Part shown: one piece after another, positions 10,631 to 43,671 of the stretch
Layout: the number at the start of each line of letters is the position of its first letter
How positions within the stretch are numbered: the first letter of the stretch is position 1
DNA from: Pontiellaceae bacterium B12219
GTDB taxonomy: Bacteria; Verrucomicrobiota; Kiritimatiellia; Kiritimatiellales; Pontiellaceae
DNA: 59,190 nt
Assembly: GCA_029432795.1 (NCBI GenBank)
Contig: JARNMJ010000026.1
Location: 1 to 59,190, forward strand
Reading direction: 5' to 3'
Notes under the pieces: model-generated
What the model was told of the DNA's origin: nothing
The model's input: only the letters and a program-made list of their open reading frames with translations
Databases searched by the model: none
Position numbers and translations under genes: made by a program

Positions 10631-12421
10631 GTGAAGCCAACCGACACGAACGACCCGGAATACTTCCATAAAGTGGTTGATTGCCAATACGCCTGCCCGG
10701 CACACACACCCGTCCCGGAATACATTCGCTTAATTGCGGCCGGGAAATATTCAGAAGCCTATATGGTGAACTGGGAATCCAATGTTTTTCCAGGAATTCT
10801 GGGCCGAACCTGCGACCGCCCGTGCGAACCGGCATGCCGTCGCGGACGAATTGAAGAAAAACCGGTGGCCATCTGTCGACTCAAACGCGTATGTGCCGAT
10901 AAAAAAGAAGATATCAAAAACCTGCTCCCCGAAATTCCAAAGGAGAAAAACGGCTTCAAACTCGCCATCATCGGAGCCGGTCCTTCCGCGCTGACGGTCG
11001 CTCGCGACCTGATGCCGATGGGATATGAAATCGACCTCTTTGAAGCAACCGATAAAGCCGGCGGTTTTATGCGCCAGCAAATCCCCTCTTTCCGACTCCC
11101 TGAAAAGGTGATCGACGAAGAAACCGGCTATATTCTCGATATGGGGGTTAATGCTCATTTCAACACGCGCGTTGAAAGCATGAAGGAATTACTGAGCAAA
11201 AATTATGACGCCGTCTTTGTTGGCACCGGCGCACCGACCGGACGCCAGCTTAAACTCCCGGGTTTCGAACAGGATCAGGGAAAGAGTATTCAAGTCGGCG
11301 TTGAGTGGCTGGCCCAGGTCGCCTTCGGTCATGTTACCGAAACCCCGAAAGACGTTATTGTAATCGGCGGCGGAAACACCGCAATGGATTGCTGCCGGAC
11401 CGCTCTGCGCCTGGGCGCAAAAAATGTTAAAGTACTTCTGCGCACCCCCATCTCTGCCATGGTGGCCTCTCCCTGGGAAATCGAAGACACCCTGGCGGAA
11501 GGAATTCCAATCCTCGAAAATCATAATCCGCTGGAATACATTGTTGAAGACGGCGTGCTTAAAGCGATGAAGTTTGAGCTCATCGAATACTCTATTTCGG
11601 AAGACGGACGCGAAGTATTCACCCCTACCGGACAATTTGAAACCATCGACTGCAGTCTGGTGCTGCTGGCGATCGGACAGGCCAATGCCTTCCCCTGGAT
11701 CGAACGGGACCTGGGCATTGAATTCAATAAAGTCGGACTGGCCGTAGTCGACGATGTCACCTTCCAATCCACTCTTCCGAAAGTGTTCTTCGGAGGCGAC
11801 GCCGCGTTTGGGCCGAAAAATATTATTACTGCGGTGGCTCAAGGCCATCAGGCAGCCATTTCAATCGACCTGTTCCTGCAAGGGAAAGAACTCGAGGTAC
11901 GCCCGGACCCGAGCACCAATCTGCTCAGCCAGAAAATGAGTATTCACGATTGGAGTTACGCCAGCATGGTTACCGAGGAACGGCGTCATCTGGTGCCCCA
12001 CGTGGATATGGAAGAAGCCATCAACAGCCATACCCTGGAAGTTGAACTCGGCTTTGATGCCCCCACGGCACTCGGAGAAGCGGAGCGCTGCCTGAACTGC
12101 GATGTTGAAACGGTTTTCACCGCCGATAAATGTATTGAGTGCGATGCGTGTATCGACATTTGCCCGGTGGACTGCCTGAATTTCAGCACCAACGGCGAAG
12201 AAGCCGATCTTCGGCGCAACCTGCACATCCCGGCCCTGAATCTGGCTCAACCCATCTTTGTTTCAGAACATCTGCAAACCGGCCGGGTGATGGTCAAGGA
12301 TGAAGATGTCTGCCTTCATTGCGGACTCTGCGCCGAACGCTGCCCGACATCCGCGTGGGATATGCACAAATTCCTCTACATTTCTCCAAAGGCGTACACT
12401 TCGAACCAACCCAAGGCCTAA
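10631..12421 (+). CDS. GltD-like NAD(P)H:ferredoxin-type FAD/4Fe-4S oxidoreductase
   Basis: The 596-residue protein carries an N-terminal iron-sulfur helical domain (CQYACPAHTPVPEYI; GRTCDRPCEPACRRG). Next comes an FAD-binding Rossmann motif IIGAGPSALTVARDL near 115, then an NAD(P)-binding motif VIGGGNTAMDCCRTALRLGA near 250. Two C-terminal 4Fe-4S clusters follow (CIECDACIDICP and CLHCGLCAERCP). This is the plan of the glutamate synthase small subunit/NfnB group with an added bacterial ferredoxin domain. It precedes korA and korB by a short gap. It probably passes electrons between the 2-oxoacid oxidoreductase's ferredoxin and NAD(P)H in the cytoplasm. Start is GTG with GGAG about 10 bases upstream. 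The electron partner is inferred. Confidence 0.85.
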   Translation: MKPTDTNDPEYFHKVVDCQYACPAHTPVPEYIRLIAAGKYSEAYMVNWESNVFPGILGRTCDRPCEPACRRGRIEEKPVAICRLKRVCADKKEDIKNLLPEIPKEKNGFKLAIIGAGPSALTVARDLMPMGYEIDLFEATDKAGGFMRQQIPSFRLPEKVIDEETGYILDMGVNAHFNTRVESMKELLSKNYDAVFVGTGAPTGRQLKLPGFEQDQGKSIQVGVEWLAQVAFGHVTETPKDVIVIGGGNTAMDCCRTALRLGAKNVKVLLRTPISAMVASPWEIEDTLAEGIPILENHNPLEYIVEDGVLKAMKFELIEYSISEDGREVFTPTGQFETIDCSLVLLAIGQANAFPWIERDLGIEFNKVGLAVVDDVTFQSTLPKVFFGGDAAFGPKNIITAVAQGHQAAISIDLFLQGKELEVRPDPSTNLLSQKMSIHDWSYASMVTEERRHLVPHVDMEEAINSHTLEVELGFDAPTALGEAERCLNCDVETVFTADKCIECDACIDICPVDCLNFSTNGEEADLRRNLHIPALNLAQPIFVSEHLQTGRVMVKDEDVCLHCGLCAERCPTSAWDMHKFLYISPKAYTSNQPKA

Positions 12422-30788: not shown

Positions 30789-31238
30789 CTATTCAACCGT
30801 GGAAAGGTAAAAAATCAAACTGAACAAATATCCCGTCAATCCGATCAGGAGCAACAGGGTTGCAACGCGGTAAAAGCGGGTTTTGGAATCCCGCCGCCGG
30901 AGATTTTCCAGCAGCGTTTCATCCAGACTGTCCACCCGCCAGGCCGTAATCCAGCGCAACCGCAACGGTCCTGTCACAATCGCAATCACAGAGGCCAGAA
31001 CAAAGGACAGGCCGAACGCAATGAAAAAGCGGCTATACGCATTCGACTGCGCCATACGCGGGCCCGAAAATCCCGTAATCGTCAGGCAAATGGTGGCCAG
31101 ACCCAGCAGCATCTGCGCGCGCGTCTGGATCAGCGCAAAGGCTTCCTTCACCGCCCCGAACAACCTGGCATAGTCCGCTGCTCCATACAGTTCCTTCATG
31201 AACGCCAACTCTTCCTCAGGTTTCAGTTTTCTCAACAT
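30789..31238 (-). CDS. Small membrane protein of unknown function
   Basis: A 149-residue protein with about three membrane segments (LLGLATICLTITGF, FFIAFGLSFVLASVIAIV, VATLLLLIGLTGYLFSLIFYL). Between the second and third is a soluble segment WRVDSLDETLLENLRRRDSKTRF, and the N-terminus is charged. No family is recognised. The ATG at 31238 has CGGAGC 7 bases upstream. A longer reading from 31349 runs through the heptamer array and yields only a repeated peptide, so it is rejected. Expression may be affected by the array length, as the ribosome site abuts it. Confidence 0.7.
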   Translation of the reverse strand: MLRKLKPEEELAFMKELYGAADYARLFGAVKEAFALIQTRAQMLLGLATICLTITGFSGPRMAQSNAYSRFFIAFGLSFVLASVIAIVTGPLRLRWITAWRVDSLDETLLENLRRRDSKTRFYRVATLLLLIGLTGYLFSLIFYLSTVE

Positions 31239-31250
31239 TGCTTTGCTCCG

Positions 31251-31341
31251 TAATGCGTATTGCGTATTGCGTAATGCGTATTGCGTATTGCGTATTGCGT
31301 ATTGCGTATTGCGTATTGCGTATTGCGTATTGCGTATTGCG
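31251..31341. repeat. 13-copy tandem 7-bp repeat (TATTGCG)
   Basis: Thirteen tandem heptamers fill 91 bases. Eleven are TATTGCG; units 1 and 4 read TAATGCG. The array ends 13 bases upstream of the start of the membrane-protein gene, on the side holding its ribosome binding site. As 7 is not a multiple of 3, every slip shifts the frame and changes spacing. On the minus strand it would read as a repeating AIRNTQY peptide. Such heptamers are scattered in environmental genomes. The mechanism of origin is unknown. Confidence 0.93.
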
Positions 31342-31393
31342 AGGAACATTTACATTCCGAACGAGCAGGTCAATACGTAATACACAGTACGTA

Positions 31394-33355
31394 CTATTTG
31401 TAAATTTTCCCGGCGCGGAAATCCGCCCATGCCGTTTCAAACCAGAGATTGCTCTCCGGAATCGGGCGCACATTAACCCACTTGTTTTCAACCTTACCAT
31501 CTTTCAAAACACTTTCCTGAACCTTGCCTTTAAACGATTTATCCTCTGCGGCAAAACTCCACTGCACTTTATCCAACTTCCGGTGCGCCGGTGTGCCCGA
31601 CTCATCCTGCACCATCGCAGATCCCCGGGAGCCCACACCGCTCTTCACCTGAAAGAGAGTCGCTTAAAGATACACCCAGTGCGCAAAACAAAGCTGCCGG
31701 TTCCGCAACGCCTGTACCGCCTGCACAGCGTTTTCAACTTTGCAGCCGTTTTCCTCGAATGCAGCAACCTGCGCTTTCGCCTCCTTTGCCGCCTGTTTTA
31801 ATCCTTCCAACGATCGGATATGCGCGCCGGATTTACTCATCCGATCCTGCAGCTCACCACGAACCGACCGCCAGCTCACATCGGAAAATGAACAGCGTTC
31901 CAGAAACCGGAAAACCTCTTTAATTTCCGCCTTCGCCACCCGATTAAAGTCAGCCATATTCAAGTCGGCATCGTTATAGACATTGCCGATAAATTCAGCC
32001 GCCCGCAGCGATCCCACCTGACCGGAATTGAGCGCCGATCCCCCCGGACGGGCCACACCATGCGAACCATTCACTTCGCCAACCGGGAAGAGGTGTTTGA
32101 TGTTGGTCGATTCCCACCAATGATTTCCCGCAAGCCCGCCGTTGTTGTGCTGTGCACAGACCGCCACTTCGAGCGGTTCTTTGGTGATGTCGATATTATG
32201 ATCTTTATAGAGATCGATCGCACCCGGATTCATATGCTTCAAACGCGCAATCGGAGTGGCCTGAAAGGCACCGGAATTTTCCAGATACTGGAACGCCTCT
32301 TTTTCCAGAGCCTGGAAATCGAAGTCCGCCGGATTTTCGCGATAGTCGAGAAATACCCGGCGCCCCTTCTCCACCGTTTCGATGTAAACGAGAATATCGA
32401 CAATGGACGAACCGCCGACAATTTTCTTGGAGTCGAACGGCCATTGATACCCCTTCAGGAACACCTTTGAATTCATTTTTCCAGGGTTTGGAAAAAAGTC
32501 GCGCATAAATTCGCGCGGGTTGCTTTTCCCGTCGGAATCGGTCGAAATAAATTTCGGAATCACCTGCATATACGTGCCCGAAACATTCCAGCGGAATTTG
32601 GTCGAAGCCAGCCCATACTGCGCTTCCGGCAGTCCCTGCGCCATCGCCCCGGCTTTCAGTGCAATCCCGATGGCGCCGGTATGCACTGCCGGATAGACAC
32701 TCGTTTTATACAGCCCGCCCGGTCCGCCAACGGCGAACACCACATTTTCGGCGGCATAGGCCACAAGCTCACCACCGCCATTCAATGCAACGGCACCGCA
32801 CGCACGTTTTTCTTTTCCTTCGCCGGTCGTCAGCAGACTGACCACATTGGTCTTTTCCTCAACCGGAATATCGCGCCGTTTCACTTCGGCAATCAGTGCC
32901 CGGCACATATCCCGCGAGGTGTACGGCCCCACAGACGTGCCGCGCTGCGCCGGATCGTGATCCGTCTTGTAGCCGATAAACTGCCCGAACGCATCCTGTG
33001 GAAATTTCACCCCAAGATTCACTAGATTCAAAAAACCACGACCGGAAACCGCCGCCTCAATCAACGCAAGATCGCCATGCATGCTGCCCGGCGAAAAAAA
33101 GTTTTTTGCCATCGCCAGCGGCGCATCCAGATCGTTGCCGCACATCGCGGATTTATAATAGGTCTGTTTGTCGGAACCGGTATTGATCGAAGTGCCCATC
33201 TTCAGCCCTTCGGTCACAATCAGCACATCTTCAATACCCTGATTGCGCAGCTGCACCGCCGCATTCAGTCCGGCCGCACCGGAGCCGATCACCAGACTGT
33301 GCACCCGCGTTACCCGAATCGTCTTTCCCCCGACTTTCAATTCGCTTTTTTTCAT
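31394..33355 (-). pseudogene. Fumarate-reductase-like FAD oxidoreductase interrupted by in-frame TAA
   Basis: The main part (33355-31664, 563 codons) has a dinucleotide-binding motif VIGSGAAGLNAAVQLRNQ at about 23-40 and GSDKQTYYKSAMCG. It also has a fumarate/adenylylsulfate-reductase-like FAD motif, GEVNGSHGVARPGGSALNSGQ, and a helical tail. A TAA at 31666-31664 follows HWVYL. The same frame then reads on without any indel for 90 codons (ATLFQV, then GVGSRGSAMVQDES... to TAG at 31394). The continuation contains a GSRGS motif expected in the C-terminal domain of such flavoproteins. So this is a single-base nonsense change, a sequencing error or readthrough. Three palindromes lie in the gene. 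It follows the esterase and SDR in one apparent operon. Start at ATG 33355 (GGGGTG upstream). Confidence 0.75.
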
Positions 33356-33377
33356 ATTCACCCCACGCTGTTTCTAT

Positions 33378-34208
33378 CTAAAACCCCTGTCGTCGAAACC
33401 ACTGTTCGCATAGCCCGATCCACTGCCGAACCTGTTTGTGCCGGAATTTTTTCACGCCGCACAAGCCCAACCCGTGAATCCCCTCGGGAAAGATGTGCAG
33501 TTCAAATTCAACCCCGGAAGATGCCAATGCCTCAGCCATCAAAAACGTATTGGAAATCGGAACCGCCACATCGTCCGCAGTATGCCAGATAAAGGTCGGC
33601 GGCATCTGTGCGCTGATTTGTTTTTCCAGACTGAAGCATTCACGCGCTTCGTCCGAGGAGGTACCCATCAGGTTTTCCAGCGATCCTTCATTACACGCCC
33701 CCCGGGCACCGGTCACGACCGGACAGCACAGCACCGCCAGATCAGGCCTCGCAGAAATGGAATCCAGTTCATCGCCGATGGCCAGCGCTTCGTTCTCCCA
33801 CCACGCGGCCGCCGTACCGGCCAGATGCCCGCCAGCCGAAAAACCGAGAACCCCGATTCGCTTCGGATCGATATTCAACTGCGCAGCATTTTTGCGGACC
33901 CACTGAATCGCCCGCCTCACATCGTGATACGGTTTCGGATGCCGCGCCGGTGCTACGGAATAATTAAGCACAAATGCATTAATCCCGAGCCCGTTTAACC
34001 AACCGGCCACCGGGCCGCATTCATGGTCGGCATGGCGCAGATATCCGCCGCCCGGCAGCACAATCACACACGGATACGGCTCGCCGGGTTCCTGATGCAG
34101 GTGAGGAACGAGATGCGGGATGTTGTCCGCCCGCAACGCGGCCACCGATCGTTCGGTGACCTCATCCTGCCAATACAGAATATTCTGTGTGTTGCTCAAC
34201 AAAACCAT
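33378..34208 (-). CDS. Alpha/beta hydrolase, acetylxylan-esterase-like (BD-FAE type)
   Basis: The 276-residue protein has the oxyanion/PGGGY motif VIVLPGGGYLRHADHE and the nucleophile elbow GFSAGGH (Ser at about 145). The charge-relay Asp lies in HTADDVAVP and His in FPEGIHGLGL. Such enzymes remove acetyl or other acyl groups from sugars. No signal peptide is seen, so it works in the cytoplasm, presumably on imported oligosaccharides. Its start overlaps the SDR stop as TAATG. It lies upstream of the broken flavoprotein gene and is part of the 31-35 kb sugar operon. Confidence 0.82.
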   Translation of the reverse strand: MVLLSNTQNILYWQDEVTERSVAALRADNIPHLVPHLHQEPGEPYPCVIVLPGGGYLRHADHECGPVAGWLNGLGINAFVLNYSVAPARHPKPYHDVRRAIQWVRKNAAQLNIDPKRIGVLGFSAGGHLAGTAAAWWENEALAIGDELDSISARPDLAVLCCPVVTGARGACNEGSLENLMGTSSDEARECFSLEKQISAQMPPTFIWHTADDVAVPISNTFLMAEALASSGVEFELHIFPEGIHGLGLCGVKKFRHKQVRQWIGLCEQWFRRQGF

Positions 34209-34990
34209 TAGAGCCTCGGCATGGTCAGGCCGCCATCAACATAAATAGCCTGCCCGGTGGCATACGGCATGTCGCCACGCGCCATCGCCGCAGCCAGTTT
34301 CCCGATATCTTCCGGGAAGCCCCAGCGTTTTTCCACCAGCAGCTCGGTGTTGTAAATCAGGTTGTCATATTTTTCGGTCACACCCGCAGTCATATCGGTT
34401 TTGATGATACCCGGACGGATTTCATAAACCGGAATGGCGTACTCGCCGAGACGTGCGGCAAACAGCGAAGTCATCATACCGAGGCCCGCTTTCGAGATGC
34501 AGTAGTCGCCGCGGTTCGGCGAAACCACTGTGGCCGAAATGGAACCGACATTAATGATGCAGCCCGCAAATGAATCATCCGCCTGCTTCTGATCCACCAT
34601 CCATTTTGCGCATGCCTGCGTCAGGAAATACGGCCCCTGCAGGTTGATCTTCATGATCCATTCAAAACCGTCTTCGGTCGCGTTTTCTTCGTCGAGAATA
34701 TCGGCGCGGACTTTCGGCGCCACACCGGCGTTGTTCACCAGCACATCCAGACGGCCGAAACGCGCCTTGATTTCCGCCAGCATCGCCGCACGGTCTTCGG
34801 CCGAAGAAACATCGCCGGAACAATAGAGCACTTCCGCTCCCATTTTTTCCAACGCCTGAACGGAGTCCGCCACCTTGGAAACATCGCTGCGTCCGCTCAA
34901 CACCAGGTTGAACCCGTCCGCCGCCAGCTTTTCACAAATTCCCAAACCAATACCGCGACCTCCTCCGGTCACCAATGCTACTTTTTTCAT
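34208..34990 (-). CDS. Short-chain dehydrogenase/reductase
   Basis: A 260-residue classical SDR with TGGGRGIGLGICEKLA near 8, NNAGVAP near 90, and the catalytic set of Ser in NVGSISATV, Tyr and Lys in YCISKAG. The C-terminus reads VDGGLTMPRL. It would oxidise or reduce a sugar-derived hydroxyl with NAD(P). In this neighbourhood a keto-sugar or uronate intermediate is a fair guess. Translation is coupled to the esterase gene. It begins the minus-strand operon, with an inverted repeat in its upstream region. Confidence 0.88.
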   Translation of the reverse strand: MKKVALVTGGGRGIGLGICEKLAADGFNLVLSGRSDVSKVADSVQALEKMGAEVLYCSGDVSSAEDRAAMLAEIKARFGRLDVLVNNAGVAPKVRADILDEENATEDGFEWIMKINLQGPYFLTQACAKWMVDQKQADDSFAGCIINVGSISATVVSPNRGDYCISKAGLGMMTSLFAARLGEYAIPVYEIRPGIIKTDMTAGVTEKYDNLIYNTELLVEKRWGFPEDIGKLAAAMARGDMPYATGQAIYVDGGLTMPRL

Positions 34991-35170: not shown

Positions 35171-35719
35171 TTAGAACCGCTTCTGTTTGCGGATGTGTTG
35201 AATAATGATTCGGCAATCTTCCAGCACTTCGTAAGTATGCTCAAAGACAGCATCGAATTGAAGGCACTCGCCCGCGCTCAGAACATGATTTTCATAAGGA
35301 AGATTAATCCTCAGTTTACCCTCCAGCACCCAGCAGATCTCAAACTCGTCGCGATGCGCATCCGGGTTGGAACGGGAAGCTCCTTTCGGCGCGTCGGCAT
35401 AATAACACTTCGAATTGGTATATTCGATTTGCCGAAAATGGAAGTCCCCCGCAATACGCTCGCTCTCCACCTTGCATTGCGCTGTACGCGATTCCACCAG
35501 CACCAGCAGCTCGGAAGCCGTCAGCCCGAATGCACGCGCCAGCCGGAAAAGGGTTTTGAGTTCCGCGGTGGTATGATTGCGTTCCAATTTAGAAATCACG
35601 GCGGGCGATATTCCCGTGCGTTCCGAAAGGTCGGCAATCGTCATTTGTGCACGCTTACGAAGATCGCGCAGAACGGCAAAATTATACATCTGTGAATCAA
35701 ACTCATACGGGTCAGGCAT
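35171..35719 (-). CDS. XRE-cupin transcriptional regulator
   Basis: The 182-residue protein has an N-terminal Cro/XRE helix-turn-helix (about 15-70, AQMTIADLSERTGISPAVISKLERN) followed by a C-terminal cupin (about 110-180, EFEICWVLEGKLRINLPYENHVLSAGECLQFDA). This architecture is used by regulators that sense small metabolites. It lies divergent from the GH88-like gene and ahead of the SDR operon, so it probably controls both. The promoter-overlapping repeats at 35753-35790 and the inverted repeat at 35051-35099 are candidate sites. Ligand unknown. Confidence 0.85.
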   Translation of the reverse strand: MPDPYEFDSQMYNFAVLRDLRKRAQMTIADLSERTGISPAVISKLERNHTTAELKTLFRLARAFGLTASELLVLVESRTAQCKVESERIAGDFHFRQIEYTNSKCYYADAPKGASRSNPDAHRDEFEICWVLEGKLRINLPYENHVLSAGECLQFDAVFEHTYEVLEDCRIIIQHIRKQKRF

Positions 35720-41882: not shown

Positions 41883-43649
41883 CTATTTCTTCTTAATCCG
41901 CAGACGGAAGTAACGGTTGGAGGTGCCCCCCATGGGCAACGACGACTCAACCTGTTGAACGGATCCGCTTTCGCTGAGGATATTTTCAATAACCCCGATT
42001 GCAGACCAGTTGTTTGACATCAGATTATCCGACCAGATCATTTCGACATCGTATTCATTCGTCGAGTTTAAATTCCGAGGATACGTCAACTGGGCATCAG
42101 TCAAATCAGCCCTGAACATGAGCGGATTCACAGTGGTTTCCTTCGGCGAAGTCGCCAAACCAAACTCCAGCAGGTTGGCAATGCCATCCTCATCGAAGTC
42201 GGCATCATCCGCCATCGTACCTGACGCATTGGTTGTACCGAAATTTGCCAATCGCCAGCTTTCGAACTCGGTCAATTCCGGAGCGGTCTGGCCAGTCACA
42301 ACAAGCGAATAGATCTGCTCATCGTTGGTAAGCGTGCCGACATAGTCGACTACGATCTGATAGTCGCCGGCAACCGGTGCGGCAAGATAAACCTGCTCCA
42401 CATTATCCACATCGTTGACGCCCGTTGTGGCCTTATCATCAATCTTATTCTCATCCCAGTCGCCGTCCGCAACATACGGCATCACATAGGGATAGTGCGT
42501 TCCATCGGGGCCGATGACTTTCAGGTTGAGGTCGTTAACGAGCGCCTTTGTGCGATTATCATGGCCGTAGATCTGCGGTGAAGCCGGATCCGTCCAGCAA
42601 AGCGTCACACGCAGCGGCGATGTGCCATCCCATCCGAAAGTGTGCGTACGGGAGGTGATGTTGGTATCGACCAAGGATTCCAACAGAACTCCGCCACCGC
42701 TGCTGTCCGCGTGTGCCTTGATCACATCTGCGGCCGCCTGCGTATTCATAATTCCCCAGCCGTATTTATAATCCGGCCCGGTTGGAGAGCGATCATCCGC
42801 CGTGTGAAGAATCAACGCTTTCAGGGTGCTGGCCCGCATCGATTCCCCGGGAAAGCGGGAGGAATAGTAATCAACTAACAAGGCAGCCGAACCACAGCAA
42901 TTAGGAGAAGACATGCTGGTACCCGAGTAGCTCGCAGTCGAGGTATCGCTACCGGCGGTGCTCGACCTCAACCCCGATCCGTTTCCGTAGATATCCGGTT
43001 TAATGCGGCCGTCATCTGCCGGCCCCCGACAGCTCCACTTTTGCGCTTTTGCCTCCACTGGATCACGATTACCACCGTCATCAAGACCATCAGCGGCCCA
43101 GCCGACAGCGATGGAATTTTTCGCGAGTGTTCCGCCCTCCATATTATCCCAGCCGCCTTTATATACCGCAATCGTGACACTCGAACCATCCACTTCATTA
43201 TAGATTGCACTGGAGCGCACCTGATCGGCAGCCGTCGTGATCGCGGCATTGACGTTCTGATCTTCCTCATAAACCGGGAGCCCGTGCTCATCAAAATCGA
43301 TCAACTGGAACCCTCTTCCGTCGGAATATTTACCCTGGACCTTCCATCCCCCTGCGGCCGCACGGCGACGAACCGCGCCCATGCGCTCCTCTTCCGCATC
43401 TTTCAATTGGCGCACCACTTCGTCCCGGCTCTGCTTATCGCGCATATTGTGGCGTTTCGACAAAATATCCGCGCGCTTCTTCCGCGCATCGCGCATCGTT
43501 TTAGCGTCCAGCTCAAACATGGCTCGGGTGTAGCGTTTCGTTTTGCCGTCTTTGATTTGCTGAGTGGACTGCGGAGACGTATTGGGTTTCACCTCCTCAG
43601 CAAATGAGGCTGTGACAATAATACTTAAAGCCAATCCTATTTTTTTCAT
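41883..43649 (-). CDS. Secreted subtilase-like protein lacking catalytic Asp and His
   Basis: The 588-residue protein has a signal peptide, a basic helical propeptide (about 25-105), then an S8 fold. The motif strand VTIAV at 158-162 should lead to the DTG Asp, and an HGTHVAG block should follow. Instead it jumps directly to YKGGWDNMEGGTLAKNSIAVG, which in intact relatives comes much later. Only the Ser motif GTSMSSPNCCGSAALL (about 240) and KPDI remain. So roughly 150 residues, with the Asp and His, are missing without a frameshift (junction near 43164). The C-terminal part has a calcium-like DFDEDGIANLLEFG repeat and ends FRLRIKKK. Proteolysis is unlikely; a binding role is possible. Confidence 0.8.
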   Translation of the reverse strand: MKKIGLALSIIVTASFAEEVKPNTSPQSTQQIKDGKTKRYTRAMFELDAKTMRDARKKRADILSKRHNMRDKQSRDEVVRQLKDAEEERMGAVRRRAAAGGWKVQGKYSDGRGFQLIDFDEHGLPVYEEDQNVNAAITTAADQVRSSAIYNEVDGSSVTIAVYKGGWDNMEGGTLAKNSIAVGWAADGLDDGGNRDPVEAKAQKWSCRGPADDGRIKPDIYGNGSGLRSSTAGSDTSTASYSGTSMSSPNCCGSAALLVDYYSSRFPGESMRASTLKALILHTADDRSPTGPDYKYGWGIMNTQAAADVIKAHADSSGGGVLLESLVDTNITSRTHTFGWDGTSPLRVTLCWTDPASPQIYGHDNRTKALVNDLNLKVIGPDGTHYPYVMPYVADGDWDENKIDDKATTGVNDVDNVEQVYLAAPVAGDYQIVVDYVGTLTNDEQIYSLVVTGQTAPELTEFESWRLANFGTTNASGTMADDADFDEDGIANLLEFGLATSPKETTVNPLMFRADLTDAQLTYPRNLNSTNEYDVEMIWSDNLMSNNWSAIGVIENILSESGSVQQVESSLPMGGTSNRYFRLRIKKK

Positions 43650-43671
43650 GCGATGCAATTCCTTACCCGCT

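Follow-up and report, generated by a model that had tools for sequence, protein, structure and literature searches.

A single in-frame TAA interrupts a conserved fumarate-reductase-like flavoprotein gene in the genome assembly of Pontiellaceae bacterium B12219

The window analysed here is a stretch of 59,190 nucleotides (contig JARNMJ010000026.1, positions 1 to 59,190) that carries, on its minus strand, a FAD oxidoreductase gene cut by one stop codon. The frame runs from GTG 33361 to TAA 31666-31664, 565 codons counting the GTG, and an ATG lies two codons inside. Direct reading of the sequence bore out the original prediction that this frame ends at TAA 31666-31664 after HWVYL, the residues directly before the premature stop being ...CFAHWVYL. 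The residue number 563 proposed there applies from the internal ATG and becomes 565 from the GTG. Past the TAA the same frame stays open up to TAG 31396-31394, as had been seen, and the 90 open codons counted then are exactly 89 sense codons plus the stop. The tail translates as ATLFQVKSGVGSRGSAMV...ADFRAGKIYK. The interrupted gene and its neighbours are the following.

31664..33361, minus strand: FAD oxidoreductase gene, open part, 565 aa, GTG to in-frame TAA; PF00890 FAD_binding_2 at residues 22-444
31664..31666, minus strand: in-frame TAA, codon 566; in homologues this is a sense codon (of 89 loci, 48 have Glu, 20 Asp and 21 another residue), and the closest relative has GAA
31394..31663, minus strand: C-terminal tail, conserved, 89 codons closed by TAG; it holds the end of helix 545-573, the SRGS motif, three strands (582-591, 613-620, 623-630) and a final helix (641-649)
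33378..34208, minus strand: alpha/beta hydrolase (BD-FAE / Abhydrolase_3), intact, directly upstream; orthologue at the same place in G016, absent there in G005
34208..34990, minus strand: short-chain dehydrogenase (SDR), intact; several relatives also have it upstream of the FAD gene, adjoining or close by
35171..35719, minus strand: HTH_3 plus cupin regulator, intact
30789..31349, minus strand: ORF resembling a membrane protein, downstream of the FAD gene; in G016 and G005 the FAD gene is likewise followed by an orthologue, of 148-149 aa

The gene order in the window is regulator, SDR, hydrolase, FAD gene and membrane protein, with the FAD gene alone interrupted. The closest relative, G016, has regulator, old-yellow-enzyme-like protein, SDR, hydrolase, FAD gene and small membrane protein, and the next relative, G005, has regulator, SDR, FAD gene and membrane protein. 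On the regulator's other side lie a GH88-like protein, a cupin and a Gfo/Idh/MocA oxidoreductase, neighbours whose predicted functions fit a cluster serving carbohydrate utilisation. The earlier view that the rest of the operon is intact holds for the immediate neighbours but not for the window at large: about 8 kb off, a subtilase (Peptidase_S8; 41883-43658, minus strand; 591 aa) is some 300 residues short in frame compared with its 893-925-aa relatives in G016 and G005. Its match to the 288-position profile covers only 168-288: the catalytic domain lacks its N-terminal half but keeps GTSMSSP. This gap would be an in-frame deletion or a misassembly.

Two further differences between the window and G016 were observed around the FAD gene. 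Between it and the next gene, the heptamer CGTATTG is present in 13 tandem copies (31249-31341), and the first ~37 residues of the downstream ORF, as listed, are translated heptamer repeat. The G016 spacer has no room for such an array (the FAD gene ends at 11654 and the next ORF starts at 11664 in L176). The old-yellow-enzyme-like gene of G016 (L176, 6590-7957), located between regulator and SDR, found no match anywhere in the window's genome, and L034 and L048 appear to encode similar proteins close to their FAD genes. Coupled loss of the two genes was rejected as evidence, since G005 lacks the old-yellow-enzyme-like gene at this place and yet carries an intact FAD gene.

The FAD protein matches PF00890 with an E value of 1.8e-18 and contains the N-terminal GxGxxG dinucleotide motif, with GSGA invariant at G26, S27, G28 and A29. 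We modelled the read-through protein with the TAA read as Glu. The model is confident (pLDDT 89.8, pTM 0.91) and has the complete SdhA/FrdA/L-aspartate-oxidase fold: E. coli FrdA (1kf6) matches residues 15-636 (Z 43.3, rmsd 3.5, 547 aligned) and L-aspartate oxidase (1knp) matches residues 6-619 (Z 40.0, rmsd 3.6, 506 aligned). 'Fumarate-reductase-like' was thus a correct description as far as fold and superfamily go. Identity to members of this superfamily is 18-20%, and no NCBIfam equivalog for fumarate reductase or L-aspartate oxidase was matched above its cut-off, the best score among the models shown being 111.3 bits against 718 for TfrA. With scores far under every cut-off shown, the FAD protein looks like a member of a separate, uncharacterised subfamily. 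This subfamily (31394-33361 in the window; loci L032-L111) is widespread and highly conserved in Kiritimatiellota, Lentisphaerae, Planctomycetes and other phyla, often adjoining an SDR, and may merit study in its own right.

The TAA falls inside a long helix of the model (545-573). The 565-residue product is without the rest of this helix, the SRGS motif, the C-terminal strands and the last helix (641-649), and its C-terminal helical domain, present in the read-through model and covered by the FrdA alignment to residue 636, is incomplete. As the stop lies within the helix, the short product is probably defective; judged by the model, truncation probably leaves the enzyme unable to fold or without activity, with loss of function. 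One could imagine a working split enzyme, in which an 84-residue tail polypeptide reinitiated at GTG 31648 would assemble with the 565-residue part, and an 84-aa ORF does have this GTG as its start, five codons past the stop. We consider this barely credible: the split would cut through a helix of the model, GTG 31648 is merely the first GTG in frame, and no relative shows a split.

We then examined the interrupted codon in homologues, searched for in 97 genomes (the window's own and relatives) and in the GTDB genome collection. None of the 89 homologue loci with a readable codon at this position has a stop there, a count that slightly overstates the number of independent homologues because some loci are the same genome seen twice. 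Of the 89, 68 encode an acidic residue (48 Glu and 20 Asp) and 21 some other residue. G016, at 89% identity, carries GAA, a single substitution from TAA, and G005 carries GAG. All 89 readable loci run on through the same C-terminal region, with at least 77 residues after the stop column in a 45-row alignment. Homologues naturally ending near residue 563, which would have spoken against an interruption, were looked for and none was present among these loci. A single continuous tblastn alignment crosses the TAA against every close homologue, in agreement with the original prediction that no indel or frameshift is involved. The tail of 89 codons aligns with homologues over its full length and is more than a chance open frame; its GVGSRGSAMV segment, which the original prediction placed in the C-terminal domain, contains the invariant SRGS. 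A stop absent from otherwise full-length orthologues (0/89) is as expected of a pseudogene by nonsense mutation. No second intact copy was found in the organism's own genome, where a genome search returned this one gene and otherwise a distant flavoprotein at 30%.

The tail itself, as judged from substitution patterns, appears to be under purifying selection and resembles conserved protein. Ten tail residues invariant in 44 homologues (S578, R579, G580, S581, R632, P635, W640, F641, E642 and W645) are all intact. Pairwise dN/dS against G016 is 0.053 for the tail, a rough value as tail dS is near saturation, and 0.064 for the head. On a fixed topology, the terminal branch of the tail measures 0.160 for the window, much as for the intact relative L004 (0.163) but longer than for L003 (0.018). 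The window's gene has undergone 8 polarised residue changes in the tail against 13 in the head, its sister L003 1 against 9. The eight derived tail changes, against one on the sister branch, hint at a slight relaxation, with a head/tail contrast that is not significant (Fisher p = 0.21). A stricter count of private changes gave 4 tail/6 head for the window versus 18/135 in the others (p 0.03), a contrast that includes distant species. In a simulation of neutral drift, at least 0.1 substitution per site yielded eight derived changes and no further stop in 0.6% of runs. Taken as half the pairwise dS, the window's own branch spans some 0.45 synonymous substitutions per site. Following the simulation, a neutral phase would have lasted less than about 0.1 substitution per site, at most about one fifth of this branch. 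Kept invariant residues, a dN/dS as low as in the head and a short neutral phase together indicate that the stop is either young or not real.

Constraint downstream of the stop is also what programmed or tolerated readthrough predicts, in which ribosomes would read the TAA as sense and complete the flavoprotein, and across prokaryotes in-frame stops show, on average, purifying selection downstream (PMC7918605). Here, no relative shares the stop (0/89 loci), and the constraint is therefore explained by the time before the mutation. A suppressor tRNA was looked for among 45 tRNA genes of the 96% complete genome and not found, the matches having ordinary anticodons and none of them UUA. RNA around the stop folds no better than shuffled sequences (z 0.06) and gave no Rfam match. 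TAA is, moreover, usually a tight terminator. Readthrough thus appears very improbable, and the stronger proposal that the TAA is decoded or bypassed to give full-length enzyme from the interrupted gene, perhaps serving as a switch for sugar utilisation, even more so. Decoding by tRNA-Sec was also rejected: no match over the cut-off was detected in the genome, weak matches coincided with ordinary Ser, Leu and Cys tRNAs, and the codon here is in any case not UGA.

Other interrupted genes were also looked for. Orthologue comparison, covering 1.23 Mb of the genome against parts of two relatives, a small sample, returned 41 intact genes and 10 flagged ones. Read by coordinates and stop counts, the latter were 4 wrong-frame ORFs (three with 4, 13 and 16 stops, one antisense to the cupin gene), 3 partial matches without stops, 2 subtilase entries and the FAD gene. 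No other nonsense-split gene was therefore found in this sample. A codon-usage scan for stop interruptions was underpowered and missed the FAD gene itself; nearly all of its matches were frames in which a start codon closely follows the stop, the pattern expected of neighbouring genes that share a frame.

Alternatively, the organism's gene may be intact and the TAA an error of the fragmented assembly, arising in base calling, in the consensus or from a mixture of strains; we regard this as possible, though somewhat doubtful. Consistent with it, the codon is one substitution from that of the closest relative in an otherwise perfect gene, the assembly is in 273 contigs with an estimated contamination of 1.56%, and the coding-strand change, G to T, is of a kind that oxidative damage in library preparation can also cause. 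On the other hand, consensus substitution errors are rarer than indels, and the lack of a further nonsense-split gene in the sampled comparisons argues that the assembly is not generally error-rich. Among the three explanations offered originally, nonsense mutation and sequencing error both stand, while programmed readthrough is unsupported (one genome, TAA, no suppressor tRNA, no RNA structure).

We infer that the TAA is probably a real, recent and isolated nonsense allele cutting a full-length gene of ~655 residues. Before the change, the gene would have encoded a full-length flavoprotein of about this size, folded like fumarate reductase, succinate dehydrogenase and L-aspartate oxidase, within a cluster for carbohydrate utilisation. 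A single substitution would have turned a sense codon, most likely GAA (Glu), into TAA, and translation would now stop at residue 565 within helix 545-573, with loss of SRGS, the beta hairpin and the last helix. The event appears isolated and recent from the retention of all invariant tail residues and the purifying selection on the tail. Annotation should flag the FAD gene as interrupted and note the intact orthologues of sister species; beyond this the finding has little significance. If real, the allele would represent the recent loss of one carbohydrate-pathway step in the lineage. The FAD gene carries an ordinary, isolated premature stop. Recent bacterial pseudogenes and segregating nonsense alleles, as surveyed in PMC7918605, display the same pattern, a conserved gene that is intact except for one in-frame stop which other species do not share, and we see no evident difference between them and the case described here.
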